Of a DNA stretch of 64,000 nucleotides, positions 1 to 58,948 are shown one piece after another. The position numbers were made by a program, and so were the translations under genes. This stretch comes from Gemmatimonadaceae bacterium (GTDB lineage Bacteria > Gemmatimonadota > Gemmatimonadetes > Gemmatimonadales > Gemmatimonadaceae): positions 1 to 64,000 of the forward strand of contig JAICWO010000007.1 of the NCBI GenBank assembly GCA_025934775.1. The letters are read 5' to 3'. How positions within the stretch are numbered: position 1 is the first letter of the stretch; each line of letters begins with the position of its first letter. The notes beneath the pieces are model-generated. The model ran no database searches. It saw only the letters and a list, made by a program, of their open reading frames with translations, and was not told the DNA's origin.

Positions 1-134
1 GCCCCAAGATGAATTCTCCCGGGTGTTCAACACCCCTGAAGGGCCGTCGGAGACGACGACGTCGATAGGCCGCCCGTGGACGCGGAGCAATCCGTTCCAA
101 GCGCAGCGGTCCTAATCGCCCGTGCGGCTTGACT
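1..134 (+). rRNA. rrl: 23S ribosomal RNA, 3' end (partial)
   Basis: The first 134 bases align by eye with the 3' end of bacterial 23S rRNA: a stretch like CCCCAAGATGAATTCTCCC, then GACGACGACGTCGATAGGCC, then a CCTAATCGCCCGTGCGGCTTG end that corresponds to the E. coli terminus. The 5' part lies outside the window. The exact 3' processing point is estimated from where similarity to the E. coli end stops. A 5S gene follows about 145 bases downstream, giving the usual 23S-5S order. Confidence 0.93.
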
Positions 135-236
135 ACTCCCAAGTGGCTTCCATTTGGTTAGTCAGCAACACTGCAAGCAGAGCAGCACGATCTTTACTGC
201 AGTTCGTCATGAACCGATCTACCACAATTTCCGTTG

Positions 237-263
237 TCGCTCACTCGCTCCGCGAGTGAGCGA
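237..263 (+). other. Perfect 12-bp hairpin in the 23S-5S spacer
   Basis: TCGCTCACTCGC at 237-248 is followed by a three-base loop and its exact reverse complement at 252-263. It lies 14 bases upstream of the 5S gene and would fold in the rRNA precursor. No U-run follows, so it is unlikely to be a terminator. An RNase III-type processing stem for separating 23S from 5S is a plausible role but is inferred. Confidence 0.7.
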
Positions 264-277
264 ACCTTGTTTGAAAT

Positions 278-396
278 CGCTGGCGACTAGAGCGTAGGGG
301 CCACACTCGTTCCCATTCCGAACACGATCGTTAAGCCCTACAGCGCCGATGGTACTCCGGTCGCGAGACCGCGGGAGAGTAGGCCGTCGCCGGCAC
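278..396 (+). rRNA. rrf: 5S ribosomal RNA
   Basis: The terminal stem is visible: GCTGGCGAC at 279-287 pairs with GTCGCCGGC at 386-394. The interior has the conserved 5S features CCATTCCGAACACG and the GCGCCGATGGTACT loop, and GGGAGAGTAGG near the 3' end. Length is about 118 bases, normal for 5S rRNA. It follows 23S on the same strand and is closed by a terminator hairpin. Confidence 0.95.
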
Positions 397-35443: not shown

Positions 35444-36769
35444 GTGTCTGGTCTTCCCCCGTTGCAATGGTGGCGAATGGTCCGGGTCAAGAGCGTACGG
35501 GAAGCGAGCATCGCGCAGGAGTTGGGCATCGAGCCCGGGACCGAGCTGCTCTCGGTCAACGGCCGCGAGCTCGTCGACTTTCTCGATTGGGAATTCCTGA
35601 CGGCCGATGACGAGCTGGTGATCGAAGCCAAGCTCCCGGACGGCGAAGCGATCGTGTACGAGATCGAACGGCCGGAAGGCGAGAGCATGGGCCTCGAGCT
35701 CGAGGCACCCACGGTGCGCCGCTGCGCGAACCGCTGCGAGTTCTGCTTCATCGAAGGGCTGCCGAAAGGCCTGCGCAAGAATCTCTACGTGCGCGACGAT
35801 GATTACCGCCTGTCGTTCACGTACGGCAACTTCGCGACGCTCTCCAACGTGAAGGAGCGCGACATCCAGCGGATTCTCGAGTACCGGCTCTCGCCGCTCT
35901 ACATCTCGGTGCACGCCACGCCGTGGGAAGCACGCAAGGTCCTGCTCAACAACCCGCGTGTGCCGAACATCATGGAGCAGCTCACGCGGCTCGCCGACGG
36001 CGGGATCCAGTTCCACGGCCAGATGGTCGTGGTGCCGGGTCTCAACGACGGCGAGGTGCTCGAGCAGTCGCTCGCCGATCTGTATTCGTTCGGCGACGCG
36101 TGCCTTTCCGTGGCAGTCGTGCCGGTCGGCCTCACCCAGTTCTCGCATTTATACACTGGAAAATCCATGGATCGCGACTCCGCGCGCGCCCTGCTGGGCG
36201 CCGTCGAGCACTGGGAAGAGCGCGCGCGCCGCGAACGCGGCGACGCGTGGGTGTATGGATCGGACGAGCTCTATCTCCTCGCCGAACGGTCGCTGCCGGA
36301 CGCCGAGTTCTACGGCGAGTTCCCGCAGATCGAGAACGGCGTCGGCGCGGTCGCGTCGCTGCGCCAGCGTGTGCGCGACGGCCTCGAGTCGCTGCCGCGC
36401 CTGGACGGCAAGCACATCGCGGTCGTCACCGGGATGTCCATGTCGAGCCTGATGCCTGATCTGCTCGAGCAGCTCGCTCAAGCAACGGGTGGGCACTTCA
36501 CGATGATCGTCGCTGAGAATTCGTTGTTCGGTCCGACGACGACGACCGCCGGCCTGCTCGTCGGCGCGGACATCCGCCGCGTCCTTGCCGAACGCACCGA
36601 TTTCGACCTCGCGTTGATTCCCGCGGAATCGATCAACGACAACGGCGTGTTCCTCGACGACGTCGAGTTCATCGCGTTGCGCGAAGAGCTGCCGATCCCG
36701 GTGTATCCGTCGTACGACTTCATCGACGCACTGGTGCACGAAGGCGAGCCGCAGGAGGCCGCGGCGTGA
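35444..36769 (+). CDS. Radical-SAM protein with DUF512 and PDZ-like domain
   Basis: The product has about 441 residues from GTG 35444. A PDZ-like N-terminus (IEPGTELLSVNGRELVDFLD) precedes a radical SAM core with a Cx3Cx2C cluster motif in CANRCEFCF. The DUF512 C-terminus follows (SFGDACLSVAVVPVGLTQ, FYGEFPQIENG). GTG 35444 is preferred because GGGGGGAG stands five bases upstream; ATG 35387 and ATG 35477 are alternatives. DUF512-der-plsY-gpsA is a gene order also known in Firmicutes. The substrate of this family is unknown to me. It overlaps der by 4 bases. Confidence 0.85.
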   Translation: MSGLPPLQWWRMVRVKSVREASIAQELGIEPGTELLSVNGRELVDFLDWEFLTADDELVIEAKLPDGEAIVYEIERPEGESMGLELEAPTVRRCANRCEFCFIEGLPKGLRKNLYVRDDDYRLSFTYGNFATLSNVKERDIQRILEYRLSPLYISVHATPWEARKVLLNNPRVPNIMEQLTRLADGGIQFHGQMVVVPGLNDGEVLEQSLADLYSFGDACLSVAVVPVGLTQFSHLYTGKSMDRDSARALLGAVEHWEERARRERGDAWVYGSDELYLLAERSLPDAEFYGEFPQIENGVGAVASLRQRVRDGLESLPRLDGKHIAVVTGMSMSSLMPDLLEQLAQATGGHFTMIVAENSLFGPTTTTAGLLVGADIRRVLAERTDFDLALIPAESINDNGVFLDDVEFIALREELPIPVYPSYDFIDALVHEGEPQEAAA

Positions 36770-38079
36770 GCGGCGTACCCGTCGTCGCGCTCATCGGGCG
36801 CCCGAACGTTGGCAAGTCGGCGCTCTTCAACCGCATCATTGGCGACGATAGCGCGATCGTCTCCGAGGAAGCCGGCACTACGCGCGATCGACACTTCGCC
36901 GAGACCGATTGGGCGGGGCACACCTTCTGGCTCGTCGACACGGGCGGCGTCGCCGACGACCCGCGCGCGCCCATGGACGTGGAGATCCGGAAACAGGTCG
37001 ATCAAGCGATCGGCGAAGCGGATCTCCTCCTCTTCGTCGTCGATGCGCGCGTTGGTCTCCACTCGAGCGATTATCACGTCGCGGAGTTGCTCCGCAATTC
37101 GGGCAAGCCGTGGATGCTCGTCGCCAACAAGGTCGACGATCCGCGCGCCACGGACTTCTACGAGTTCTACTCGCTGGGCGTCGAACAGGTCTTTCCGGTA
37201 TCGGCCATCAACGGCAAGGGCTCGGGCGATCTGCTCGACGCAGTCGTCGCGTCGCTGCCGGACGTGCAGCCGGACGCCGAACAGACGCTCAGGGTCGCGG
37301 TGATCGGCAAGCCCAACGTCGGCAAATCGTCGATCGTCAACCGGCTGCTTGGCGAGGAACGTCTCGTCGTCTCCGACGTCCCCGGTACCACCCGTGACGC
37401 GATCGATACGCCGATGCGCTATCACGGGCGGCCGTTCGTGTTCGTCGATACCGCGGGCCTGCGCCGCCAGAGCAAGATCGACGAAGGCATCGAGTTCTAC
37501 TCGTCGCTGCGTACGCGCCGTGCGATCGAGCGCGCTGATATCTGCGTCCTCGTCGTCGACGCGACCGAAGGACAGATTCAGAATCAGGATCTCAAGATCG
37601 CGAATCTCGCCTGGGAATCGGGGCGCGGCCTGATCGTCGTCGTCAACAAGTGGGATCTGGCCGAGAAGGATGACAAGGCGACGGCGAAGTATCAGAAAGA
37701 GGCCGCCGAGAAGGCGCCGTTTCTCGGCTTCGTGCCGTTCGTCTTTACGTCCGCCCTGACCGGCCAACGTGTCTCGCGCATTCTCGATCTGATTCTCGAG
37801 GTCGAACAGGAGCGCGGCAAGCGCGTCGCGACCGCGGAGGTCAACGCGAAACTGCACGAGCTGCTCGCGCGCCGCCAACCACCACAGGCCGCTGGTCGCG
37901 AGATCAAGCTCAATTACGCGACGCAGGTCGAGACGCATCCGCCGACGATCGTCGTCTTCGGCAACGCGCCGGATCTCGTGGAAGAGCATTACGTGCGATA
38001 CCTGCACAACGGCTTTCGCTCGTACTGGGGCTTTACGGGGAATCCGCTTCGCATCATCCTCCGCCGCAAAGCGAGTTGA
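36766..38079 (+). CDS. der: Ribosome-assembly GTPase Der (EngA)
   Basis: Der carries two GTPase domains and assists 50S assembly. The 437-residue product shows two full motif sets: GRPNVGKS, DTGG and NKVD, then GKPNVGKS, DTAG and NKWD. The KH-like C-terminal domain ends with FRSYWGFTGNPLRIILRRK, as in typical Der proteins. The GTG start overlaps the radical-SAM gene (GTGA), and the stop shares one base with plsY. Confidence 0.97.
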   Translation: MSGVPVVALIGRPNVGKSALFNRIIGDDSAIVSEEAGTTRDRHFAETDWAGHTFWLVDTGGVADDPRAPMDVEIRKQVDQAIGEADLLLFVVDARVGLHSSDYHVAELLRNSGKPWMLVANKVDDPRATDFYEFYSLGVEQVFPVSAINGKGSGDLLDAVVASLPDVQPDAEQTLRVAVIGKPNVGKSSIVNRLLGEERLVVSDVPGTTRDAIDTPMRYHGRPFVFVDTAGLRRQSKIDEGIEFYSSLRTRRAIERADICVLVVDATEGQIQNQDLKIANLAWESGRGLIVVVNKWDLAEKDDKATAKYQKEAAEKAPFLGFVPFVFTSALTGQRVSRILDLILEVEQERGKRVATAEVNAKLHELLARRQPPQAAGREIKLNYATQVETHPPTIVVFGNAPDLVEEHYVRYLHNGFRSYWGFTGNPLRIILRRKAS

Positions 38080-38780
38080 TGCTCCCGCTCGTCGCCGCCC
38101 TTGTCGCGTCGTATCTGCTCGGGTCCATTCCCGCGGCATACATCGCCGGCAAATCCAAGGGCGTCGACTTGCGCAAACACGGATCCGGCAATCTCGGCGC
38201 GACGAACGTCATTCGCGTGCTCGGCGCCAAGATCGGGCTCGCCGTGTTCGCGTTCGACATGGCCAAGGGCGCGATTCCAGTCGCGGTGTTCTCGCGGTAC
38301 GTGCCGGACGCGATCGCTCCGTTCGGCGATCCGACGATCACGGCCATTCTCTGCGGCGTCGCCGCGATCATCGGCCACGTCCGGCCCGTCTACTTGAAAT
38401 TCGGAAAGGGCGGGAAGGGTGTCGCGACCGCGGCTGGCGTGTTCGTCGCGCTGGCGCCGGTTCAGACATTACTCACGCTCATCATCTTCGCCGTCGTGCT
38501 GCTCTCGAGCGGCTTCGTCTCGCTCGGGTCGCTGACGAGCGCGACGATGCTGCCGGTGCTGCTCGCGATCACCGTCGGCGCGCGGTCGCCCGTGTTCGTC
38601 ATCGCGCTCTTGGTGGCGATCTTCGTGTTCTGGACGCATCGCGCGAACATCGGCCGGCTTCGCCGCGGTGAGGAACATCGGTTCGGAAAGAAGGGCGTGC
38701 CGGCCAAGCGTCCGGCCGCGACGCTCGCGATCACGCTCGTGATCGTGCTCGCGGTGCTGATCGCCGCGAGGTTCGCCTGA
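38079..38780 (+). CDS. plsY: Acyl-phosphate glycerol-3-phosphate acyltransferase PlsY
   Basis: PlsY makes lysophosphatidate from acyl-phosphate and glycerol 3-phosphate at the inner membrane. The product has 233 residues and several helices. The three family motifs are visible: GSIPAAY..., HGSGNLGATNV and KFGKGGKGVAT. ATG 38079 shares a base with the der stop (TGATG); a TTG three bases earlier is less likely. Its substrate glycerol 3-phosphate is made by the next gene, gpsA. Confidence 0.95.
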   Translation: MLPLVAALVASYLLGSIPAAYIAGKSKGVDLRKHGSGNLGATNVIRVLGAKIGLAVFAFDMAKGAIPVAVFSRYVPDAIAPFGDPTITAILCGVAAIIGHVRPVYLKFGKGGKGVATAAGVFVALAPVQTLLTLIIFAVVLLSSGFVSLGSLTSATMLPVLLAITVGARSPVFVIALLVAIFVFWTHRANIGRLRRGEEHRFGKKGVPAKRPAATLAITLVIVLAVLIAARFA

Positions 38781-39775
38781 TGCGTTGCGCGGTCGTCGGC
38801 GCGGGCGCGTGGGGCACCGCGCTCGCGAGTCTCCTGTCGAGCAACGGCCACGAAACGTCGATCTGGGCCCTCGAGCCGGACGTCGTCCGCTCGATCAACG
38901 AGCTGCACGAGAATTCGCGTTTTCTCAAGGGCTTCGCCCTCGCGAGCTCGCTCTGCGCCGCGAATGATCTCGCGCGCGTGGTCGAGGGCGCAGCGCTCGT
39001 GGTCTATGCGACGCCCTCGCACCACCTGCGACGAATCGCGGCTGAGACGAAGCCTCGGCTCACCGGCAACGCCACGGTCGTCATCGCGACGAAAGGAATA
39101 GAGCAGGGGCGTCTCGCGCTCATGAGCGAGGTCGCCGCGGTGGAGCTTCCGGGGTGCCCCGTCGTGGCGCTCTCAGGGCCGAGCTTCGCCGCGGAAGTCG
39201 CCGCGGGTCAGCCGACCGCGATCGTCGCGGCCTCGGCCGACGAACGGGCCGCCATCGCGGTGCAGAGCGCGTTCAGCAGCTCGAGATTCCGCGTCTACAC
39301 GCACGACGACGTCATTGGCGTGGAGCTTGGCGGCGCGCTCAAGAACGTCATGGCCGTCGCCACCGGGATGGTCGAGGGCGCCGGACTCGGCTTCAACTCG
39401 CGCGCGGCGCTGATCACGCGCGGGCTCCATGAGATGACGCGGCTGGGCGTCGCGCTGGGCGCGCACAGCGCCACCTTCGCCGGGCTTGCCGGGCTCGGCG
39501 ATCTCGTGCTGACGTGCACCGGCGCGTTGAGCCGCAATCGTGCGCTCGGGATCGAGATCGGGCAGGGCGCCACGCTCGACGAGGCGCTCGCCGGCAAGGA
39601 GACCGTCGCCGAGGGCGTGCTGACCACCGCGAGCGCGCGCGAGCTCGCCCGCGTACACGACGTATCGATGCCTATCGCCGACACCGTGTTCCGAATTCTT
39701 TTCGAGGGCCAGGCGGCGCGTGACGCCGTTCCCGAGCTCATGGCCCGCGAGCTTCGATCGGAGCAAGACCTGTGA
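38780..39775 (+). CDS. gpsA: Glycerol-3-phosphate dehydrogenase [NAD(P)+]
   Basis: GpsA reduces dihydroxyacetone phosphate to glycerol 3-phosphate, the phospholipid backbone. The 331-residue product has an N-terminal GAGAWGTALA nucleotide-binding site, ATKGIEQ, the SGPSFAAEVA motif, the catalytic-lysine region GVELGGALKNVMAVATG and NSRAALITRGLHEM. It is coupled to plsY (TGATG) and overlaps the merR gene by 4 bases. Confidence 0.96.
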   Translation: MRCAVVGAGAWGTALASLLSSNGHETSIWALEPDVVRSINELHENSRFLKGFALASSLCAANDLARVVEGAALVVYATPSHHLRRIAAETKPRLTGNATVVIATKGIEQGRLALMSEVAAVELPGCPVVALSGPSFAAEVAAGQPTAIVAASADERAAIAVQSAFSSSRFRVYTHDDVIGVELGGALKNVMAVATGMVEGAGLGFNSRAALITRGLHEMTRLGVALGAHSATFAGLAGLGDLVLTCTGALSRNRALGIEIGQGATLDEALAGKETVAEGVLTTASARELARVHDVSMPIADTVFRILFEGQAARDAVPELMARELRSEQDL

Positions 39776-40143
39776 GTCCTACAACGTCCGAACCCATTCA
39801 GGAATTCTTCTCGATCGGAGAGGTCTGCGATCTCACCGGGCTCAAGCCGCACGTGTTGCGGTACTGGGAGAGCCAGTTTCGATTCCTGAGTCCGGCCAAG
39901 AATCGATCGGGAAACCGCGTCTATCAGCGGCGCGAGGTCGAGCTGATCATGCTCGTGAAGCACCTCTTGTACGATGAGAAGTACACGATCGAAGGCGCAC
40001 GCCAGAAAGTGGATGAGCACCGCAAGGGCGGCGATCTCAAGGTCGTGGCACGCGGCGCGCTCACGGTGCAGGCGCTCGAGTCGCTGGAGTCGGATCTCAA
40101 AGATCTGATCGTGGCGCTCGGCTCGACCGTTCTCGCCGACTGA
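39772..40143 (+). CDS. MerR-family transcriptional regulator
   Basis: The 123-residue product has a MerR winged-helix domain: FFSIGEVCDLTGLKPHVLRYWE, then NRVYQRREVELIMLVKHLL. A short coiled C-terminus without metal-binding cysteines follows. Such small MerR proteins often follow plsY-gpsA or an integration-host-like gene in other bacteria. The target is unknown; being in the glycerolipid operon, it may respond to lipid status, but nothing in the sequence shows an operator. Confidence 0.88.
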   Translation: MSPTTSEPIQEFFSIGEVCDLTGLKPHVLRYWESQFRFLSPAKNRSGNRVYQRREVELIMLVKHLLYDEKYTIEGARQKVDEHRKGGDLKVVARGALTVQALESLESDLKDLIVALGSTVLAD

Positions 40144-40148
40144 CTCCG

Positions 40149-40910
40149 ATGCGCCTTCTCCTCACCAACGACGATGGAATTCTCGCGCAGGGCATAGAGT
40201 GTCTATGCCTTGCCGCGGAGCCGCTCGGTGACGTCACGATCGTCGCGCCCGATCGCGAGCAGAGCGCGACGAGCCACTCGCTGACGCTCCACCATCCGCT
40301 GCGGCCGATCCAGCGCGGCGAGCGGCGCTGGCAAGTCGACGGCACGCCGACGGATTGCGTGATGCTCGCGATCGAAACGTTGATGCCGGAGCGCCCGGAT
40401 TTCGTGCTGAGCGGCATCAACCATGGTCAGAACATGGGCGAGGACGTGCTGTATTCCGGCACTGTCGCGGCCGCCATGGAGGGCCTGGCCCTCGGCGTTC
40501 CGTCGATCGCCGTGTCGTTTGCCGGCGGCGATCTGAGAACCGACGTGAGCCAGTTGAAGCAGCAGGTGAAGGTGCTCACGCCGCTGCTCGCCCATCTCAC
40601 GTCGCTTCCCAACTTCCCGGCGGACACGCTGCTCAACGTCAATCTTCCGCCCGTTCCGGCGAACGACGTGAAAGGCGTGCGCCTCACGCGCCTGGGCCGC
40701 CGCGTCTACTCGACATCCGTCGCGCCGATGCGCGATCCGTGGGGACGGCAGATCTACTGGATCGGCGGCGGTGAGATCACGTGGAGCGGGGAGCCGGATT
40801 CCGATTTCCGCGCGATCGACGAAGGGTACATCTCGGTCACGCCGCTGCACCTCGACTTGACGCACTTCGACGTACTTCGCGGAGCGAGCTCGTGGTGGCG
40901 CGACCTGTAG
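40149..40910 (+). CDS. surE: 5'/3'-nucleotidase SurE
   Basis: SurE is a metal-dependent phosphatase acting on nucleoside monophosphates, often under stress or stationary phase. The 253-residue product starts MRLLLTNDDGILAQGI with the metal-binding DD pair. It has PDREQSATSHSLT, the SGINHGQNMGEDVLYSGTVAAA motif and a C-terminal dimerisation region. As in many genomes it is followed by pcm, here overlapping it by 19 bases. Confidence 0.95.
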   Translation: MRLLLTNDDGILAQGIECLCLAAEPLGDVTIVAPDREQSATSHSLTLHHPLRPIQRGERRWQVDGTPTDCVMLAIETLMPERPDFVLSGINHGQNMGEDVLYSGTVAAAMEGLALGVPSIAVSFAGGDLRTDVSQLKQQVKVLTPLLAHLTSLPNFPADTLLNVNLPPVPANDVKGVRLTRLGRRVYSTSVAPMRDPWGRQIYWIGGGEITWSGEPDSDFRAIDEGYISVTPLHLDLTHFDVLRGASSWWRDL

Positions 40911-41563
40911 ACACGGAGCTCCGCGGCGCGCGGCAGCGCCTCGTCGAGACGCTGCGCGAGAAGGGCATTCGCGATCTCGCCGTGCTCCGCGCGTTCGAGC
41001 TCACGCCGCGCCACGCCTTCGTGCCCACGGGCATTCGCCACCGTGCCTACGAGGACTCGGCGCTTCCGATCGGCAACGGCCAGACGATCTCTCAGCCCTG
41101 GGTGCACGCGCGCTATCTCGAGCTGCTGCAGCTCGCGGGCAAGGAGCGCGTACTCGAGATCGGGACCGGATCGGGCTATCAGACGGTGCTGCTGTCACAC
41201 CTCGTCGCGCAGGTCTTTTCGATCGAGCGAATTCCCGCGCTCGTTCAGCTAGCGCGCGAGAACATTCAGCGCGCCGGCGCGAACAACGTCTCGCTGCTGA
41301 TGGGCGATGGAACCATCGGCTGGCGCGAGTACGCGCCCTACAACGCGATTCTCGTCAGCGCCGGTGCTCCGTCGATTCCGCAGCCGTTGCTCGAGCAGCT
41401 CGCCGAAGGCGGCCGTCTGCTCGTCCCGGTCGGCGATCGCGACGAGCAGAAGCTCGTCATCGCGACGCGCACCAATGGTCAGATCGTGATGCGCGAGGAA
41501 GCACCCATGCGATTCGTGCCGCTGATCGGATCGCACGGATGGGGCAAGCAGCCCGGGTCGTGA
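40892..41563 (+). CDS. pcm: Protein-L-isoaspartate O-methyltransferase
   Basis: Pcm repairs isomerised aspartyl residues using S-adenosylmethionine. The 223-residue product has the PRHAFVPTGIRHRAYEDSALPIG region, GQTISQPWV, SAM-binding motif I LEIGTGSGYQTVLLS and the DNAILVSAGAPSIPQPLLEQ-type segment near the C-terminus. GTG 40892, overlapping surE by 19 bases, is favoured. A second GTG three bases later is possible. It is coupled with the acylphosphatase gene by TGATG. Confidence 0.93.
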   Translation: MVARPVDTELRGARQRLVETLREKGIRDLAVLRAFELTPRHAFVPTGIRHRAYEDSALPIGNGQTISQPWVHARYLELLQLAGKERVLEIGTGSGYQTVLLSHLVAQVFSIERIPALVQLARENIQRAGANNVSLLMGDGTIGWREYAPYNAILVSAGAPSIPQPLLEQLAEGGRLLVPVGDRDEQKLVIATRTNGQIVMREEAPMRFVPLIGSHGWGKQPGS

Positions 41564-41832
41564 TGCACTTGCACGTTCGCGTTCGCGGCCGGGTGCAGGG
41601 AGTCGGATTTCGCTGGTTCGTTCGCGAAGCTGCACGCGGACTCGGCCTGTCTGGCTGGGTGCGCAACGATCCCGACGGTTCGGTCGAAGTCGCCGCCGAG
41701 GGGCCTGACGACGCGATTCGCGCACTCCGCGAGCGATTGCTCGAGGGGCCGCCCGGCGCGTCAGTCGCAGGTCTCCAGGAGCTCGAGCAGTCCACGATCG
41801 AGCTCGAGCAACCTTTCACGATTCTGAGGTAA
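41563..41832 (+). CDS. acyP: Acylphosphatase
   Basis: The 89-residue product is a normal-length acylphosphatase, hydrolysing carboxyl phosphates. The catalytic region HVRVRGRVQGVGFRWFVREA contains the active-site arginine, and GWVRNDPDGSVEVAAEG contains the active-site asparagine. ATG 41563 shares a base with the pcm stop; a frame reaching back to 41539 is not needed. Confidence 0.93.
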   Translation: MHLHVRVRGRVQGVGFRWFVREAARGLGLSGWVRNDPDGSVEVAAEGPDDAIRALRERLLEGPPGASVAGLQELEQSTIELEQPFTILR

Positions 41833-41838
41833 TGGAGC

Positions 41839-42384
41839 ATGCCGCTCGCACCGACGGACCTCGATCTTGCGCAGCGCCTCAGCCGGCTCATTCGTGACGT
41901 GCCCGACTATCCCAAGCCGGGGATCCTCTTCAAGGACATCACTCCGCTGCTCGGCGACGCGGCCGCGTTCGCGGCCGCGACCGATGACATGGCGCGGCCG
42001 TTCGAAGCCTCCGCCGTTACTCACGTGGTGGCCATCGAGAGCCGCGGCTTCATTCTCGGCGGCCCGATCGCGCAGCGGCTCGGGGCAGGGTTCGTCCCCG
42101 TGCGAAAGCCGGGGAAGCTGCCGAGCGCGACGCGCCGCGAGGAGTACGCGTTGGAGTACGGCTCGGACGCGCTCGAGATCCACGCCGATGCCTGCGACAG
42201 CGGCGCGCGGGTACTCATCGTGGACGACGTGCTCGCGACCGGCGGCACCGCGGATGCTACGCGGCGGCTGGTGAACGCTCTTGGCGCCACCGTCGTCGGG
42301 CTTTCGTTCCTGATCACGCTCTCGTTTCTCCCGGGGCGCGAGCGCGTCGCGGGAACGCCAATTCATTCCACCATCACATTTTGA
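41839..42384 (+). CDS. apt: Adenine phosphoribosyltransferase
   Basis: Apt salvages adenine to AMP using PRPP. The 181-residue product has PKPGILFKDITPLL, the ESRGFILGGPIA motif, RKPGKLPS and the PRPP-binding VLIVDDVLATGGTADA. The ATG is six bases after the acylphosphatase stop. The gene closes the surE-pcm-acyP-apt group, all with nucleotide or damage-repair themes. Confidence 0.96.
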   Translation: MPLAPTDLDLAQRLSRLIRDVPDYPKPGILFKDITPLLGDAAAFAAATDDMARPFEASAVTHVVAIESRGFILGGPIAQRLGAGFVPVRKPGKLPSATRREEYALEYGSDALEIHADACDSGARVLIVDDVLATGGTADATRRLVNALGATVVGLSFLITLSFLPGRERVAGTPIHSTITF

Positions 42385-42453: not shown

Positions 42454-42527
42454 GCCCCTGTAGCTCAGATGGATAGAGCAGCGGTTTCCTAAACCGTTGG
42501 TCGGAGGTTCGAATCCTCTCAGGGGCA
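42454..42527 (+). tRNA. tRNA-Arg (anticodon CCT)
   Basis: A full cloverleaf folds by eye: acceptor GCCCCTG with CAGGGGC, D-arm GCTC/GAGC, anticodon stem GCGGT/ACCGT with loop TTCCTAA (anticodon CCT, reading AGG), and a T-arm GGAGG TTCGAAT CCTCT. Discriminator base is A. CCA is not encoded, so it is added after transcription. It sits between apt and the TPR gene on the same strand. Confidence 0.96.
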
Positions 42528-42565
42528 CTGGGGCACTTCCGCTCGCTCTTTACCACGATCGATCC

Positions 42566-43234
42566 ATGACAAGCATTCGCACCGACATCGATTCCGCGGC
42601 CGCGGAACGCGCGCAGACTTTTCTGGACTGGACCAAGATCAACGCCAAGGCTCTCGCCACGGGAGCGGTGATCGTCCTGGTCGCGGCCGCCGGGTACTGG
42701 TTCTACCTCAGGCAGCAGGAGATCAAGTCCGCGAACGCCGAGAAGTCGCTCCTGAGCGCGAAGCAGTCGATCGCCGCGGGGAACCAAGCGCTCGCCCAGA
42801 GCGACTTGCAGAAGGTCTTCTCCCAGTACGGCTCGACGACCGCGGGAGTCGAGGCGGCGATGCTCCTCGCCCAGATGGACTATGACGCCGCCAAGTACCA
42901 GGACGGCATCTCGCTGCTCCAGAAGGCAGCCGGCAGCAGCGGCGCGTCGCGCAACCAGACCGCCATCCTGAGCCTCGAAGGCGACGGCTACATGCAGATG
43001 AGCAAGGCCGGCCAGGCCGCCAAAGCGTATCAGGATGCCGCCACCGCCGCGCTTGGTGACATCGAGCGGTCGTACGAACAGGCCAAAGCCGCGCGGGCGT
43101 ACGCCACGAGCGGCGATACCGCGAGCGCCCGGAAGATCTGGGCAGCGCTCTCGGACGATCCGAAGGCTGCCACTGTGGCCGCGGAAGCCAAAGTGAGACT
43201 CGGTGAGCTGACGGCGGCACCCGCGAAGAAGTAG
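42566..43234 (+). CDS. Membrane-anchored TPR-like protein (YfgM-like)
   Basis: The 222-residue product has one transmembrane helix near 30-48 (ALATGAVIVLVAAAGYWFYL). The rest is a periplasmic helical region of TPR-like repeats (SALSSEKSLLSAKQS-type and DYDAAKYQDGISLLQKAAG). This resembles YfgM/AncA proteins that work with periplasmic chaperones. ATG 42566 is chosen because the frame upstream runs through the tRNA. It is the last plus-strand gene before the dif region and has its own terminator. Confidence 0.82.
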   Translation: MTSIRTDIDSAAAERAQTFLDWTKINAKALATGAVIVLVAAAGYWFYLRQQEIKSANAEKSLLSAKQSIAAGNQALAQSDLQKVFSQYGSTTAGVEAAMLLAQMDYDAAKYQDGISLLQKAAGSSGASRNQTAILSLEGDGYMQMSKAGQAAKAYQDAATAALGDIERSYEQAKAARAYATSGDTASARKIWAALSDDPKAATVAAEAKVRLGELTAAPAKK

Positions 43235-43259: not shown

Positions 43260-43294
43260 AACAGGCTCGGCGCTCGCGCGCCGAGCCTGTTTTT
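43260..43294 (+). terminator. Rho-independent terminator of the last plus-strand gene
   Basis: ACAGGCTCGGCGC (43261-43273) and GCGCCGAGCCTGT (43278-43290) form a 13-bp perfect stem around TCGC, followed by TTTT. It lies 26 bases after the TPR gene stop and marks the end of the plus-strand arm. Confidence 0.93.
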
Positions 43295-43420: not shown

Positions 43421-43448
43421 AGTTCGTATAAGATGTATTATGTAAACT
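43421..43448 (+). other. dif: dif-like XerC/XerD recombination site
   Basis: The 28-bp site has the XerC/XerD layout. The left arm AGTTCGTATAA (43421-43431) agrees with the E. coli XerC arm at 8 of 11 positions. The central hexamer is GATGTA (43432-43437). The right arm TTATGTAAACT (43438-43448) agrees with E. coli at 9 of 11, and as I recall equals the Bacillus subtilis right arm. The arms are partial inverted repeats of each other. The site sits in the only large gap, exactly where plus-strand genes end and minus-strand genes begin. It most likely resolves chromosome dimers at the replication terminus. No xerC/xerD gene is in the window. Confidence 0.85.
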
Positions 43449-43463
43449 GCATCCGGGGAAATC

Positions 43464-43488
43464 CTGTGGAGAACTTCGTTCTCCACAG
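43464..43488. other. Perfect 11-bp inverted repeat next to dif
   Basis: CTGTGGAGAAC (43464-43474) and GTTCTCCACAG (43478-43488) flank TTC. The repeat starts 16 bases after the dif-like site. Read on the minus strand it lies about 52 bases beyond the dapF stop and is followed by GATTT, so it may be a weak dapF terminator. A protein-binding palindrome associated with dif is the alternative. Confidence 0.7.
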
Positions 43489-43540: not shown

Positions 43541-44368
43541 CTATATCTCCGAAAGTAGTCCTTGAAAGACCACTCGCCCCTCGCCGGCCAAGCTGGGTAG
43601 CCACGCGGCGCCAGATCGCTCGAGGCGAACGCGAAGGATGCGGCCGGACTTCGTTTCGAGCGCAACCGGCCCGGTCGCGTCGCCCCACGCCGTCAGCAGT
43701 ATCGCCGTGGCAACGGAGCCGCTGCCGCACGCGAGGGTTTCCGCCTCGACGCCGCGCTCGTACGTCCGGATGCGCCACCGGCCGTGGGCGCTGCTCTGGG
43801 AGACAAAGTTTGCGTTGGCGCCGTGCGTCAAACTGGCGTGGTGCCGGAGCGGTCGGCCGCGTCCGGCGACATCAACGGTCGAGACGTCGTCGCATTGGAT
43901 CACGAGGTGCGGAACCCCGACGAGCGCGAATCCGATACGCCGCTCGCCCACCTGCGTGCTGATCGCGGCGGCCGCCGCCGAGACGTCGGTGACTTCCGGC
44001 AGATCAATCTCAGGCAAACCGTCGGGGCCGATCCGCGCCTTGACCACGCCCGAGTCGGTCTCGATCGTGACGTCGTGGTCAGACGCGATGCCCAGCTCCG
44101 CAACCAGGCGTGTCGTGCACAGCGTGGCGTTGCCGCAGAAGTCGGCGCGGCCGCCGTCCGCGTTCAGGTAGACGAGCTTGATCGTCGCTCGGTTCGACGG
44201 CTCCAGGAACACGACACCGTCTGCCCCAACACCGGTGCCGCGGGCGCATATCCGCTGCACGACCTCCGCCTCGGCGAGCCGCCCGGCGGGCTCATGGCGG
44301 GCGTCGACCATGACGAAGTCGTTCCCCGACCCGCTCATCTTGTAGAAGGATCGGCCGGCCCGAATCAC
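43541..44368 (-). CDS. dapF: Diaminopimelate epimerase
   Basis: DapF makes meso-diaminopimelate for peptidoglycan and lysine. The 275-residue product begins FYKMSGSGNDFVMVDA. It carries both catalytic cysteines, in DFCGNATLC and in ETLACGSGSVATA. The GTG start has a GAGGGA ribosome-binding site about 9 bases upstream. It is the last gene of the minus-strand arm, ending next to the dif region. Confidence 0.95.
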   Translation of the reverse strand: MIRAGRSFYKMSGSGNDFVMVDARHEPAGRLAEAEVVQRICARGTGVGADGVVFLEPSNRATIKLVYLNADGGRADFCGNATLCTTRLVAELGIASDHDVTIETDSGVVKARIGPDGLPEIDLPEVTDVSAAAAAISTQVGERRIGFALVGVPHLVIQCDDVSTVDVAGRGRPLRHHASLTHGANANFVSQSSAHGRWRIRTYERGVEAETLACGSGSVATAILLTAWGDATGPVALETKSGRILRVRLERSGAAWLPSLAGEGRVVFQGLLSEI

Positions 44369-44398: not shown

Positions 44399-45172
44399 TC
44401 ACAGGCGGTTGGTCATGGCCCACCACCTCAAGCGCCAGACCACCCAGAAGGCCTCGCGCACGATGGCTTTTGACATCTTGCTCTGACCCTCGGTGCGGTC
44501 CACGAAGACGATCGGGATCTCGACGAGCCGAAAGCCCTTTTTCCATGCCCGAAAGTGCATCTCGATCTGAAAGGCGTAGCCGTTCGAAACAACCTTATTC
44601 AGATCAACGGCTTCGAGTACAGCAATGCGAAAGCACTTGAAGCCAGCGGTCGTGTCCCAGATCGGAAGCCTCGTCACGAACCGCGCGTACACGTTCGCCG
44701 TGTAGCTCAGCAGCAGCCGGCTGATGGGCCAGTTGACGATCGTGACCTTCCCCTGCCGGTAGCGCGAGCCGATGACGAGGTCTGCTCGCTCGATCGCGTG
44801 GAGGAAATCGGGCAGATGCGCTGGATCGTGTGAGAAGTCGGCGTCCATCTCGAACACGAGGTCGTACGCCCGCTCGAGCGCCCACTGGAAGCCCGCCACG
44901 TACGCGGTCCCCAGCCCCATCTTCCTTGGGCGACGAAGGATGTGAACGCGCGAGCTCTCGGCGATGATGCCTTCGACGATGTCGCCGGTGCCGTCAGGTG
45001 AGCCGTCGTCGACGACGAGGATCTCGAGTCGAGGATCCTTGCTCAGGACGGCGTCGATGAGCCGCGCGATGTTCTCGCGCTCGTTGTAGGTGGGCACGAT
45101 AACGAGAGCGCGCTCGTTGCCGGGCGCGCCCTCTGAATCACCGCTGCTTGCCTGCCGTACAGGGATGGCCAT
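44399..45172 (-). CDS. Dolichol-phosphate mannose synthase-like glycosyltransferase (GT2)
   Basis: The 257-residue protein is a GT2 enzyme of the polyprenol-monophosphomannose synthase (Dpm1) group, which makes polyprenol-phosphate sugars. It shows VIVPTYNERENI, EILVVDDGSPDGTGDI, FEMDADFSHDPAHLP and GSRYRQGKV. A DPM1-like end (FVDRTEGQSKMSKAIVREA) follows, with no transmembrane tail. It may supply a lipid-linked sugar to the GT-C-like protein upstream in this arm. Confidence 0.9.
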   Translation of the reverse strand: MAIPVRQASSGDSEGAPGNERALVIVPTYNERENIARLIDAVLSKDPRLEILVVDDGSPDGTGDIVEGIIAESSRVHILRRPRKMGLGTAYVAGFQWALERAYDLVFEMDADFSHDPAHLPDFLHAIERADLVIGSRYRQGKVTIVNWPISRLLLSYTANVYARFVTRLPIWDTTAGFKCFRIAVLEAVDLNKVVSNGYAFQIEMHFRAWKKGFRLVEIPIVFVDRTEGQSKMSKAIVREAFWVVWRLRWWAMTNRL

Positions 45173-54231: not shown

Positions 54232-55466
54232 GACGGATGTCGTTCCCCTTCATCGGCCGCGGCGAATCGAGCGCGCAGGCGCGCCGTCAACGTGGGGCCG
54301 AGATAGATGTCCGCAACGGTGTCGTCGAACACGAGATCCCGGACGGTGCCAGACACCTTCACCTGGCCGTCGAACATGATGTACGCGCGATCCACGATGT
54401 CCAGGGTCTGCTCCACGTTGTGGTCGCTGATCAGCACGCCGATGTTCCGGTGACGCAAGTCCGACACGATGGTTTGAATGTCATGGACCGCGATGGGATC
54501 GACTCCCGCGAACGGCTCGTCCAACATCATGAACTTTGGCTGGGTCACCAACGCGCGCGTGATCTCGAGACGCCGACGCTCGCCGCCGGAGAGCGCGAAT
54601 GCCTTGCTGTTCCGAAGGTGCTTGATACTCAGCTCGTCCAGCAGCGTCTCCAACCGGGCTCGCCGTTCGCTCGACGACAGATCCAGCGTTTCGAGGATCG
54701 CCAGGATGTTGTCTTCGACCGAGAGCTTGCGGAAGACGGACGGCTCCTGAGAGAGGTACCCGATGCCCCGCCGCGCCCGCTTGTACATCGGCATCGACGT
54801 TATGTCGTCGCCGTCCATCACGATCTTGCCGGCCTGCGGTTCGATGAGTCCGACGATCATGTAAAACGTCGTCGTCTTCCCGGCGCCATTCGGCCCCAAC
54901 AGTCCGACAATCTCTCCCTGTTGCAATCGAAGGGCCACGTCGTTCACGACGCGGCGCCGGCGGTACGTCTTGACCAATCCATGGGCCTCGAGGACGCTGC
55001 CGCCGCTGGTCGGTGCGGGCGCAACTCCAGTCGGCGCGCTGGCTTCGGCGACCGGGCGCGGATGCTCGCCGGTGTCGCGAAACGCGCTCGCGACCGCGTC
55101 ACGTGTGCTGCTGATGTCCGCCCAGATCCGTTCCGTGAACTGAACGGAGGCTCCAGCGCCGAGGGCTTCGTCCGAGAGCAGAATGACGCCCTCGGCGGCA
55201 AGGCGCGGGAGGACGGATCGCGCGAGGTGGTCGCGGACCTCGTCCAGGCTCAGCCGACCCGCTTCGCGCTCGGCATCCCGTCCGCTCGCGCGCACGGCGG
55301 CGAGGTAATCGTTCCGATAGGCGAGCACGGCCTGGTCGAAATCGGCGCGGCCGCTGCTGTCAGCGGTGCTGATCAACGCGTGGAGCGCGAGCGCGGTCGA
55401 TCGGTCGCCGTGCGCGAGTTGGTCGACCAGTACGCGGATGCGAGACGGTTCAGAGGGTCCGGTCAC
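54228..55466 (-). CDS. lptB: LPS export ATPase LptB with an unusual N-terminal extension
   Basis: LptB energises LPS extraction from the inner membrane. The ATPase part (about 157-412) has Walker A GPNGAGKT at 191-198, Q-loop YLSQEPSVFRKL, signature LSGGERRR at 292-299, Walker B MMLDEPFAGVDP and H-switch ISDHNV. The first 155 residues are extra: a helical, charged domain (about 10-130) and a Pro/Ala linker. Typical LptB is about 240 residues. GTG 55466 overlaps the lptA stop by 4 bases, and no other start lies between there and the ATPase. A longer frame upstream is rejected. Confidence 0.9.
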   Translation of the reverse strand: MTGPSEPSRIRVLVDQLAHGDRSTALALHALISTADSSGRADFDQAVLAYRNDYLAAVRASGRDAEREAGRLSLDEVRDHLARSVLPRLAAEGVILLSDEALGAGASVQFTERIWADISSTRDAVASAFRDTGEHPRPVAEASAPTGVAPAPTSGGSVLEAHGLVKTYRRRRVVNDVALRLQQGEIVGLLGPNGAGKTTTFYMIVGLIEPQAGKIVMDGDDITSMPMYKRARRGIGYLSQEPSVFRKLSVEDNILAILETLDLSSSERRARLETLLDELSIKHLRNSKAFALSGGERRRLEITRALVTQPKFMMLDEPFAGVDPIAVHDIQTIVSDLRHRNIGVLISDHNVEQTLDIVDRAYIMFDGQVKVSGTVRDLVFDDTVADIYLGPTLTARLRARFAAADEGERHPS

Positions 55467-56881
55467 GGACGTTTGGGTGGGAGAGGAACGCGCGACGGGA
55501 CGGCCGTCGTATTCGGCTTCTGACCCGCGGGCGTCTGTCCGGGCTTCTGCGCGCCCGGCTTCTTCGTCTGTGCGGCCTTTGCCTTTCGCGCCGTGCTGTC
55601 CGGCTTCGGCTCCACGTAGATGCCCTGCACCGAATCCCGCGCGTCGACGGTGGCCACTTTCTGCGCGCTGTCGAAGGCGATCGTGATGATGTGCGCGCTG
55701 ACCTGATTGATCGCCGGCAGATGCAGCGTCGTGTCGCTCGCGGGCATGTGAAACCACGCCGCCGCGTGGCCGTCGGCGACGAGCTGCTTGATGACCGGCG
55801 TGTGGGAGGTGTCCTTCGTGGCCGCGGTGTCGAAGTGGGCGGTGATCGTGTCGCCCGCGAGCCAGTTCAGCGTATCTGGTTTCACCAAGTGGAATTGTGT
55901 CGTGTCCGCCGGCTTGCCCTGCGCCAACGCGCCGCGCAGCGCGCGCACGAGGCGCACCTGCTGGTTGGGCATCGTGACGTCGAGCGAGTCCGCGGTCAGG
56001 TTCTGCGACGGCGACAATGCCTGCGCGCGGCTGATCCGCCCCCACGCGTACGCGTGATTCAGCACGTCATCCGTGACGCGGAGGTCGATCGTGTCGGCCT
56101 TGAGCGTCAGGGAATCGCTCACCGCCGTCGCATGCGCGCGCGCGATCACGCGCGTGAGCTTGCGATTGCTCGAGTACATGTCGATCAGGTCGCCGCGGAG
56201 CGTGAACTGCCGGTCCTTCTTCCCGGTCAATTGCGGATTGCGCATGAGACGCATCGTCTCGTGCGTCTGATCGATGAACGCGGAGTCCGCGGTCGCGGTG
56301 ATGTTGGGCCGCGTGATGATCACCTGCCCGGAGCCGTACACCAGACTGTCGCCGTCCATGAACACCGTCGTCGCGACCACGGTGATCGGCGGCGTCGGCT
56401 TGCCCTGCGAGTCGGGCTGCACGATGGTGATCGTCGGCCGCGCGAGCGCATGAACCTGGCGCCGCTCTCGACCCGGCCGTCCGGGAACCGGACGATCGTA
56501 CTCCGCCTGCGGTCCGACGAGCGTCGAGCCGCTCGGCAGCTTCGCGTGCACGTTGCCGGCGGCGACGATCCGGTCGTCCGTCAAGAAGTAATTCAGAAAA
56601 TCCGACGTCATGCTGAACCGCGGCTCGTCGTAGTGCACGTTGCCAACGACGTAATACCGATCCTTGTATATCTCGGCGCTGTCGCCGCGGAGGGTGATGT
56701 TGCGGGACGGGCACTTCACGAGCACACCGCCGCCCACGAAGCTGCGCCCGCCCATGAGCGTGTCCGCGGTCTGCCGAGTCGACGCGCTGCCGATCAACTC
56801 GCAGCGGGACTCCTGCGCGGCGAGCGCCAGCGGCGTCGCCACGATCGCGACCAGCGCGGTGAAGATCCCGCCGAGCTTCAT
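55463..56881 (-). CDS. lptA: LptA/OstA-like LPS-transport protein
   Basis: The 472-residue product has a signal peptide cleaved near ALAAQ (about 22). It contains several OstA-type beta-jellyroll repeats, such as ITLRGDSAEIYKDRYYVVGNVHYDEPRF, and RQFTLRGDLIDMYSSNRKLTRVIA. It ends in a Lys/Pro-rich tail (TPAGQKPNTTAVPSRVPLPP). E. coli LptA is about 185 residues, so this is a long, multi-repeat form. ATG 56881 overlaps lptC by 4 bases; a frame reaching 57406 through lptC is a shadow. Confidence 0.86.
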   Translation of the reverse strand: MKLGGIFTALVAIVATPLALAAQESRCELIGSASTRQTADTLMGGRSFVGGGVLVKCPSRNITLRGDSAEIYKDRYYVVGNVHYDEPRFSMTSDFLNYFLTDDRIVAAGNVHAKLPSGSTLVGPQAEYDRPVPGRPGRERRQVHALARPTITIVQPDSQGKPTPPITVVATTVFMDGDSLVYGSGQVIITRPNITATADSAFIDQTHETMRLMRNPQLTGKKDRQFTLRGDLIDMYSSNRKLTRVIARAHATAVSDSLTLKADTIDLRVTDDVLNHAYAWGRISRAQALSPSQNLTADSLDVTMPNQQVRLVRALRGALAQGKPADTTQFHLVKPDTLNWLAGDTITAHFDTAATKDTSHTPVIKQLVADGHAAAWFHMPASDTTLHLPAINQVSAHIITIAFDSAQKVATVDARDSVQGIYVEPKPDSTARKAKAAQTKKPGAQKPGQTPAGQKPNTTAVPSRVPLPPKRP

Positions 56882-57423
56882 CGATTTGGAATCGTGACGT
56901 TGGCCGAGCCGCCGCACTGGCGCAGACACTGGTAATGCGTGAAGCCGGGATCGGCGTTGAAGCCAACACCTGTCGCGGTGCGATCGCCGTTGCTCAGCGT
57001 GTACGTCGTGTCGCTCGAGATCTGGTTGAGCGGCTGATTGTAGATGACGTGTGGCGATCGAAGCGTCCGCCCGTCGACGAGGTTGATCACGACGTGACCC
57101 CAGCCCTCGAGCAGACGGCTGTTGACGTTGTAGACGCCATGGTCCGCCGTCATCGTGCCGTTCGGCGCGCCGTTGTCTTTGGTGAAGTTGAGCTTGACCC
57201 GGCGCAGGTCGAAGCGTGTCTGGTTGTCGAGCACGTACGTCGTATCGGCGAACAACTCGGCGCGTTGAATCCCGCTGTTCGTGAGCACCGTGCGGGTGTG
57301 GAACAGCACCTGGTCCGCGCTGTCGGCAATGCCCGGCTTGGCGGTCACGGGGGTCGTGGATTTTCCGCATGCGAGCGTGGCGATCGCCGCGGCTGCGGCG
57401 ACGCACAGGACGAGCTGGCGCAT
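56878..57423 (-). CDS. lptC: LptC-like LPS-export lipoprotein
   Basis: The 181-residue product has a lipoprotein-type signal with lipobox ATLACGK. An LptC-like jellyroll follows (LFADTTYVLDNQTRFDLRRVKLNFTKDNGA in parts, and MTADHGVYNVNSRLLEGWGHV). E. coli LptC is an inner-membrane single-pass protein; here the anchor appears to be a lipid. ATG 57423 shares a base with the kdsD stop; a TTG just before it is not needed. It sits in the expected position between kdsD and lptA. Confidence 0.86.
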   Translation of the reverse strand: MRQLVLCVAAAAAIATLACGKSTTPVTAKPGIADSADQVLFHTRTVLTNSGIQRAELFADTTYVLDNQTRFDLRRVKLNFTKDNGAPNGTMTADHGVYNVNSRLLEGWGHVVINLVDGRTLRSPHVIYNQPLNQISSDTTYTLSNGDRTATGVGFNADPGFTHYQCLRQCGGSANVTIPNR

Positions 57424-58391
57424 CAAATCACCCTCGCGCGCATGAGGTCGTGCAGGTGCACGACGCCTGAAAGGCGATCGTGGTCGTCGACGACCGGGAT
57501 CGCCATGATGCCGTGCTGCTCCATGCGGTAGGCGACCGCGCTCGCCAGCTCGCCGACACGGGCGATTTTCGGGGTGGTGGTCATGACGGTGCGAACTGGT
57601 ACCGGAAGAATGTCGCCGCCGCGCTCGATCATGCGGCTGAGATCGCCCGCCGTGAGCACGCCGGCCACCGAGCCGTCGCCGCCGACGACGACGGCGATGC
57701 CGCGGCGCCGGGCGATCATCACGATCGCTTCGCGCATCGAGTCGGAGTCTCGCAGGACAGGCAGGTCGGTTTGGAGCATGATTTCTTCGACGCGTACGAC
57801 GAGCTGACGGCCGAGTGCTCCGCCCGGATGCAGCCGAGCGAAATCCTCGCGATTGAATCCCTTCTCCTGCAGCAGCGCCACCGCCAGCGCGTCACCGATC
57901 ACCAGCGCGGCCGTCGTGCTGGTCGTGGGCGCCAGGTCGTGTGGGCACGCCTCCTCCCGGACGACCGCGTCGAGCGCGACGTCGCAGTTCCTCGCGAGCG
58001 CCGACTCCGTCCGGCCCGTCACGGCGATGCTTCGTACACCGAAGCCTTTCAAATGCGCCAAGAGGGCCAACAGCTCGTCGGACTCGCCGCTTTTCGAGAT
58101 CAGAATCGCCACGTCGTGCGGACCAACGATGCCCAGATCGCCGTGCACGCTGTCGACGGGATGCAGAAACGCCGCGGGCGTGCCCGTCGACGTGAGCGTG
58201 GCGGCGATCTTTCGCCCAATCAGTCCGGACTTCCCCACTCCGGCGACGATCACGCGCCCCGACGACTCGGCGATCAGCCGCACCGCACGCGCGAATTCGG
58301 CGCCGAGGCGCTCCTCGATCCCGTCGAGCGCTTCGCGTTCCATGCGAATCACGCGCTTGCCGCGTTCGATGATCTCCCGGTCGGCCATCAT
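57423..58391 (-). CDS. kdsD: Arabinose-5-phosphate isomerase KdsD
   Basis: KdsD converts ribulose 5-phosphate to arabinose 5-phosphate, the first Kdo precursor. The 322-residue product has an SIS domain (VAGVGKSGLIGRKIAATLTSTG, then SKSGESDELLALL). Two CBS domains follow (VMLQTDLPVLRD-type, GVLTAGDLSRMIE). ATG 58391 forms the ATGA overlap with kdsC; the frame upstream to 58448 is rejected. It is part of the kdsB-pyrG-kdsA-kdsC-kdsD run. Confidence 0.95.
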   Translation of the reverse strand: MMADREIIERGKRVIRMEREALDGIEERLGAEFARAVRLIAESSGRVIVAGVGKSGLIGRKIAATLTSTGTPAAFLHPVDSVHGDLGIVGPHDVAILISKSGESDELLALLAHLKGFGVRSIAVTGRTESALARNCDVALDAVVREEACPHDLAPTTSTTAALVIGDALAVALLQEKGFNREDFARLHPGGALGRQLVVRVEEIMLQTDLPVLRDSDSMREAIVMIARRRGIAVVVGGDGSVAGVLTAGDLSRMIERGGDILPVPVRTVMTTTPKIARVGELASAVAYRMEQHGIMAIPVVDDHDRLSGVVHLHDLMRARVI

Positions 58392-58948
58392 CGCGATCCC
58401 GCGGGGTCGGAGCGCTCGGCGACGTAGCCCTGCCAGGCGGCGTCCCATTGACCGCGCGCCTTGAGGAATTTCTCACAAAACTCGCGCACGGCGCCGCGGC
58501 CGCCTTCATGCTCGAGGTGAACGCGGCAGACGTGCCGCACCTCCGGCACCGCGTTGCCAACGGCCACGGGCAGGCCGACGATCCGGAGGAGCGCGAGGTC
58601 GGGAAAATCGTCGCCGACGAACGCGCACTCCGCCGGCGTGACGCCGTGCTTCGAGAGCATTCTGGTAAACGCGCCCATCTTGTAGCCGTCGGGATCCTGC
58701 GCGACATCGTCGACGCCGAGCTCCTGGCCGCGCAGGCGTACGCTCTCGGAGACGCGTCCGGTCACGATCGCCACGCGCAGTCCCGCGCGGCGCAGCATCG
58801 TGATGCCGAGTCCGTCCTGAATGTCGTAGCGCTTGAGCTCCAACCGTCGTCCATCGACGTCGCCCAGGTAAATGCCGCCGTCGGTGAGCACGCCGTCGAC
58901 ATCGAAGCCGACGAGCCGGATCGAACGCGCCAACGAGGGATCGATCAC
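58388..58948 (-). CDS. kdsC: 3-deoxy-manno-octulosonate-8-phosphatase KdsC
   Basis: KdsC removes the phosphate from Kdo-8-phosphate. The 186-residue HAD protein has the catalytic [10 protein letters not shown], the VTGRVSESV motif, and [10 protein letters not shown] for metal binding. These are classic KdsC features without a cap domain. It overlaps kdsD and kdsA by 4 bases each, so translation is coupled across the pathway. Confidence 0.95.

Follow-up and report, generated by a model that had tools for sequence, protein, structure and literature searches.

The chromosomal dif site is usually regarded as a self-contained 28-bp unit controlled by FtsK, and, to our knowledge, no box of the kind described below is known at the dif of E. 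coli or B. subtilis. For the phylum Gemmatimonadota, the accessible part of Kono et al. 2011 (PMC3025954) includes one Gemmatimonadetes genome with a predicted dif and reports that xerC usually lies near dif and xerD near the origin. Tomasch et al. 2024 (PMC11237797) described a conserved region of ~600 kb around ter in which nearly all genes lie on the leading strand, with rRNA clusters inside this strand-biased region, an orientation switch at the GC-skew change and, in five isolates, a strand-bias peak at the cumulative GC-skew extreme. Both a dif in the phylum (the 2011 prediction) and a strand-biased terminus domain (2024) are thus already known.

The window analyzed here, a stretch of 64,000 nucleotides from a Gemmatimonadaceae bacterium, belongs to contig C16 of a 47-contig assembly (4,876,897 bp, 99.29% complete). 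The initial annotation placed a 28-bp XerC/XerD-type site with the hexamer GATGTA in this window, and the site can be read directly from the sequence; its layout of two 11-bp arms and a 6-bp centre (11-6-11) matches dif (Table 1). An assembly-wide search allowing up to three mismatches returned it as the sole dif-like match, and a reversed-pattern control at the same threshold in the same assembly returned 0 matches. In the matching Gemmatimonadota relatives, dif was nearly always single-copy, with reversed-pattern controls near zero, and the XerD-side (right) arm was almost unchanged across 49 aligned relatives. The checks suggested with the initial annotation, for other copies in the genome and for the site in other members of the phylum, therefore came out in its favor: no second copy was found, and most matching relatives carry the same site once per genome. 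We consider it almost certain that the site represents the dif of a Gemmatimonadota chromosome, located at the replication terminus; the identification was right, but largely known already. The loci compared below belong to the families f1, f2, f4/f6 and f5 and, in five cases, to other phyla. The resulting dif catalogue also pinpoints the terminus in many Gemmatimonadota assemblies that are not closed.

Table 1. Features around the dif site (positions in the window).
Feature	Position	Strand	Evidence and remarks
23S rRNA 3' end and 5S rRNA	1..395 (23S 1-136; 5S 279-395)	+	rRNA operon aimed at dif, ~43 kb off; contig starts inside the operon
Conserved block: der, plsY-like acyltransferase, gpsA, merR-type regulator, surE, pcm, apt	36766..42384	+	
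tRNA-Arg (CCT)	42454..42528	+	
TPR_21-domain protein, last plus-strand gene before dif	42566..43234	+	Pfam PF09976, E 8e-11; kept beside dif in almost every f1 locus whose flank is long enough
Terminator-like hairpin AACAGGCTCGGCGC...GCGCCGAGCCTGTTTTT, closing the plus-strand unit	43260..43294	+	Read from sequence
dif	43421..43448	+	XerC-type arm AGTTCGTATAA 43421-43431, central hexamer GATGTA 43432-43437, XerD-type arm TTATGTAAACT 43438-43448
Degenerate upstream repeat GGGGAAATCC	43455..43464	+	Ten bases before the box; covers +8 to +15 of the information profile; GTGGATAAC or similar in many relatives; weak in the window itself
dif-proximal box TGTGGAGAA, DnaA-box-like	43465..43473	+	First base at +17 from the dif end
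Inverted second box TTCTCCACA	43479..43487	-	Forms an inverted repeat with 43465-43473
dapF, first minus-strand gene after dif	43541..44368	-	Pfam DAP_epimerase, E 3.5e-37; neighbour kept in f1 and f2
Family 2 glycosyltransferase, second gene after dif, conserved	44399..45172	-	

Anchoring the relatives on dif revealed conserved sequence past the XerD arm, which the initial annotation had overlooked. In the information profile of 49 distinct f1 loci, positions +8 to +25 are conserved and the rest stays at background, save for the outermost dif-adjacent bases and weak traces; a further motif suspected 55–75 bp after dif is unsupported by this f1 profile. The conserved element is a 9-bp box, TGTGGANAA or one mismatch off (chiefly TGTGGGAAA), whose first base lies at +16 or +17 from the dif end. 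At this position it is present in 63 of 72 f1, 33 of 33 f2 and 10 of 12 f4/f6 loci (106/117, four families). Control windows of 13 bp, set at greater distances to either side of dif in these loci, contained it in 0 of 994 cases for f1, 0 of 454 for f2 and 0 of 168 for f4/f6 (0/1,616). Since the loci are not phylogenetically independent, these counts do not translate into a probability, and the presence of the box in four families of one class is a stronger argument than the locus counts. A set of 84 loci, each 20 kb long, contains 23 box-type sequences, 13 of them within 90 bp of a dif, and in the 271.8-kb contig containing the window the dif-proximal box and its inverted copy are the only ones; the two lie in the inverted repeat 43464-43488, whose 11-bp arms match perfectly around a 3-nt loop (DNA fold z -3.7).

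Among the f1 loci, the variants at dif are TGTGGAGAA (25), TGTGGGAAA (18) and TGTGGACAA (7), the remainder being mixed. An upstream-repeat box with at most one mismatch precedes the main box by ten bases in 41 of the 72 loci, giving a 10-bp period. The XerD-side box is missing in all 34 f5 loci, which do have dif and DnaA; in 7 of these 34, an exact box stands in mirror orientation on the XerC side, 10–12 bp from dif. Several f5 genera show TTTTCCACA mirrored on that side (f5 dif loci L139-L143, L205, L206, L216, L217 and L219). With the XerD-side copy missing and a mirrored XerC-side copy in several genera, the box seems to have swapped sides in f5. The box is absent at +16/+17 from all five loci of other phyla that share these arms.

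The DnaA box consensus is TTWTNCACA, from which the window box TTCTCCACA differs at base 3. The flanks of dnaA (33 loci) contain 44 copies of TGTGGAWAA against 0.2 expected in shuffles, i.e., 1.52 per kb versus 0.0036 in control loci (~400-fold). The dif-type variants TGTGGASAA/TGTGGGAAA occur there 8 times against 0.46 expected, or 0.277 per kb versus 0.010 in control loci, a control figure that includes the dif boxes themselves (~27-fold). Because box-type sequences are enriched in the dnaA flanks, the dif box appears to be of the DnaA-box kind, with middle bases usually off the oriC form: in most dif boxes, base 7 is G or C, or the sequence is TGTGGGAAA, and TGTGGAWAA, the rule in dnaA flanks, is a minority at dif. 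Exactly one protein with the DNA-binding domain IV of DnaA was found in 19 of 20 genomes tested. This single domain-IV protein and the kind of box make DnaA the leading candidate binder, and we rate its binding to the dif box, judged from sequence, at slightly under an even chance.

Given that the dif boxes differ from those in the dnaA flanks, they could also be bound by another protein or be deliberately weak DnaA sites. As the binder, an accessory protein of the terminus or of Xer comes close to DnaA in likelihood. On this account, the box would be the target of an Xer accessory factor or a MatP- or Tus-like protein, and the likeness to DnaA boxes would be partly coincidental. The systematic difference at bases 6 and 7 from the dnaA-flank boxes is consistent with such a dedicated binder, as are the 10-bp period of the two repeats and the fixed distance of 16–17 bp from the XerD arm, which suggests contact with the recombination complex. 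However, the dif-type variants are enriched in the dnaA flanks too, and the f4/f6 boxes and those on the left side in f5 are mostly exactly TGTGGAAAA; both observations speak against a dedicated binder.

Three further candidates were rejected. A second domain-IV protein as the binder was dismissed, as none exists in 19 of 20 genomes, and the sequence and rarity of the box rule it out as a KOPS. The third was a DnaA paralog. G000:C25:84296-86212 (L367:796-2712, minus strand) encodes a protein of 638 aa in which two DnaA-type AAA+ domains stand in tandem and the DnaA DNA-binding domain is absent; similar tandem double matches are found in most f1 genomes, ~240–290 kb from dif in G043, G045, G001 and G044. 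The paralog was dismissed as a dedicated binder since it lacks domain IV and since the box is kept in genomes with a single DnaA-domain match (e.g., G175 and G042).

The segment after dif could instead be an RNA feature, a terminator of the dapF transcript, in place of a DNA-binding site: downstream of dapF in the window, the box can pair perfectly with its inverted copy as a hairpin. The inverted partner, however, occurs in only 9 of 72 f1 and 0 of 33 f2 loci, whereas the box is conserved at a constant distance from dif, which makes a terminator role improbable; among the f4/f6 loci, the partner is seen in 5 of 12. Moreover, the hairpin has no T-run on the dapF strand, and in f5 a copy sits on the other side of dif.

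Whole-chromosome skew was sampled in two relatives, G043 and G073. In the complete chromosome of G043 (4,636,964 bp), a genome of the same family, the cumulative GC-skew maximum over a contiguous 410 kb lies at 1,930,413, 128 bp from the start of dif at 1,930,285; dnaA is located at 449, with dif 41.6% of the circle away. In the 5,311,527-bp replicon of G073, dnaA (1,209,662) and dif (3,765,239) are nearly opposite, 48.1% of the circle apart. The skew in the contig containing the window is weak, ranging from +0.013 to +0.027 left of dif and mostly negative to the right (-0.0001 to -0.041), with an exception of +0.013 at 180–200 kb. Thus, the GC-skew change anticipated by the initial annotation is seen at dif in G043, but in the contig itself the cumulative maximum falls at 57.8 kb, 14.4 kb past dif. 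The single copy, the phylum-wide occurrence of the site, the skew change in a complete relative and the position roughly opposite dnaA agree with the replication-terminus pattern initially proposed. The single-contig f2 genome G309 is an outlier, its dif (572769) and dnaA (~2009057) being ~26% of the contig apart, which may reflect strongly unequal arms or a misassembly.

The KOPS-like octamer GGGNAGGG was counted on both sides of dif: 23 forward and 4 reverse on the left and 4 forward and 24 reverse on the right in G043, and 5 forward and 1 reverse on the left and 4 forward and 13 reverse on the right in contig C16. The octamers aim at dif from both flanks and switch strand there, with gene co-orientation as a partial confounder. 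Over three genomes, GGGCAGGG has 76 leading versus 10 lagging occurrences, ranking fourth among octamers by combined skew.

A simple codon-model caller placed 37 of 37 genes left of dif in the window on the plus strand, and 16 on the minus strand with one on the plus strand to the right. This lone plus call (57480-58427) sits over a minus-strand ORF (57423-58448) with SIS and CBS domains (E 2e-25) and is therefore read as a shadow ORF. The tRNA-Arg and the rRNA at the left end of the window are likewise on the plus strand, and the run of minus-strand genes, broken by just three more isolated plus calls, continues as far as contig position 154.8 kb. The convergence of all genes on dif without exception, as claimed initially, stands as a pattern, with counts (40 and 18 genes) slightly different from the 37 and 17 calls here; that dif occupies the only large gap is not quite accurate, since its gap measures 306 bp and the caller leaves other gaps above 300 bp. 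In G043, the plus-strand fraction of coding bases is 0.94–1.00 in three 20-kb blocks left of dif and 0.03–0.12 in five 20-kb blocks starting at dif, and mostly 0.45–0.65 in left-arm samples far from dif. The minus-strand gene at 55463-56929, close to genes for an ABC ATPase and the SIS/CBS protein, encodes 488 aa with no Pfam match and only a sub-threshold LptC match; it is possibly a divergent Lpt component.

The rRNA operon belongs to the same domain. The 16S gene lies 46.7–50.6 kb from dif, co-oriented toward it, in G001, G037, G043, G044, G045, G055 and G073, and ~46–49 kb from dif, also pointing to it, in G031 and G162. Such terminus-near rRNA, contrary to the usual origin-proximal placement, has already been published for the phylum (PMC11237797). 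The orientation domain described here shares the traits reported in that study (leading-strand genes around ter, a switch at ter and an rRNA operon within), so this part of the result is already known; that the switch is a published trait of the phylum could not be known to the initial annotation. A convergent operon boundary unrelated to termination would be compatible with the weak GC skew of the contig, but it is very improbable as the cause of the switch, which coincides with dif, with the KOPS polarity change and with the skew peak of G043, in line with PMC11237797, where strand bias peaks at the extreme of cumulative GC skew in five isolates.

The gene order TPR gene > dif < dapF < glycosyltransferase recurs in almost every f1 locus for which sufficient flank is available, and likewise in most f2 loci (TPR gene in 29 and dapF in 28 of 30). 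Both recombinases were identified by profile search in the same genome. XerD is encoded at 64427-65335 of contig C16, ~21 kb from dif (TIGR02225, 354.7 bits, cut-off 329.6), and a second Xer on contig C6, adjoining a trmFO-like gene, has XerC as its best match, slightly below the cut-off (TIGR02224, 330.5 bits, cut-off 335.15). A xer gene is located ~21–22 kb from dif in G043, G073 and G117 as well. The dif-near gene of this genome is thus a xerD, unlike the trend in Kono et al. 2011. An origin of the site in a mobile element, as an Xer attachment scar or a site of the pdif kind, is hardly credible: dif-like sites do occur in some phage contigs, but 0 of 57 such contigs carry the adjoining box, and the site here is single-copy, has the same neighbours (TPR gene, dapF) across f1 and f2, and marks the skew and KOPS switch.

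From the unique site, the switch in skew and gene strand, the KOPS polarity, the two xer genes and the box at its spacing, all read from sequence, we infer the following course of events. Replication forks would meet at dif, where FtsK, steered by the KOPS octamers from both sides, would recruit XerC and XerD; these would recombine two dif copies and turn chromosome dimers into monomers. Genes on both sides would run with replication because a domain that bears core genes and rRNA is kept at the terminus in this lineage. In most families, the box (TGTGGANAA or TGTGGGAAA) extends dif on the XerD side, often with a weaker copy ten bases earlier. Its most likely occupant would be DnaA, which would bring the initiator beside XerD; there it could assist or time dimer resolution, or the box could serve as a DnaA-titration site in the terminus. 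We hypothesize that in Gemmatimonadota DnaA binds next to the XerD arm and couples dimer resolution at the terminus to the initiation cycle; in full, this proposal is unlikely, with a probability of roughly 0.27. We know of no bacterium that ties the two poles of its replication cycle together in this way. A phylum-wide box that resembles a DnaA site and keeps a constant distance to the XerD arm implies that the chromosomal dif has an accessory protein, and a connection of initiation with dimer resolution would thereby become testable.

The terminus region of PMC11237797 resembles this locus in its co-oriented core genes around ter, its internal rRNA operons and the switch at the GC-skew change; that study mentions dif once, as a general ter proxy, and neither Xer nor DnaA. 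The accessible part of Kono et al. 2011 (PMC3025954) describes no flanking element such as the box. As no description of a dif-flanking box was found in the accessible parts of open-licence papers, which is weak evidence, the DnaA-like box at a fixed spacing from dif across most of the phylum may be regarded as a new element. The locus shares with the XerCD-FtsK dif of the Firmicutes and Proteobacteria type the 11-6-11 layout, the XerD arm, the single copy, the skew switch, the two Xer proteins and the KOPS polarity, and differs from it in the box past the XerD arm. Like E. coli datA and DARS1/2 and the DnaA-box clusters of B. subtilis, it has DnaA-box-like sequences away from oriC, but with only one or two candidate boxes, at a fixed distance from dif and mostly non-consensus at bases 6 and 7. 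The plasmid Xer sites cer and psi have long accessory DNA on the XerC side, bound by PepA, ArgR and ArcA. The locus described here likewise has accessory DNA adjoining the Xer core, but this candidate accessory DNA is short and lies on the XerD side.
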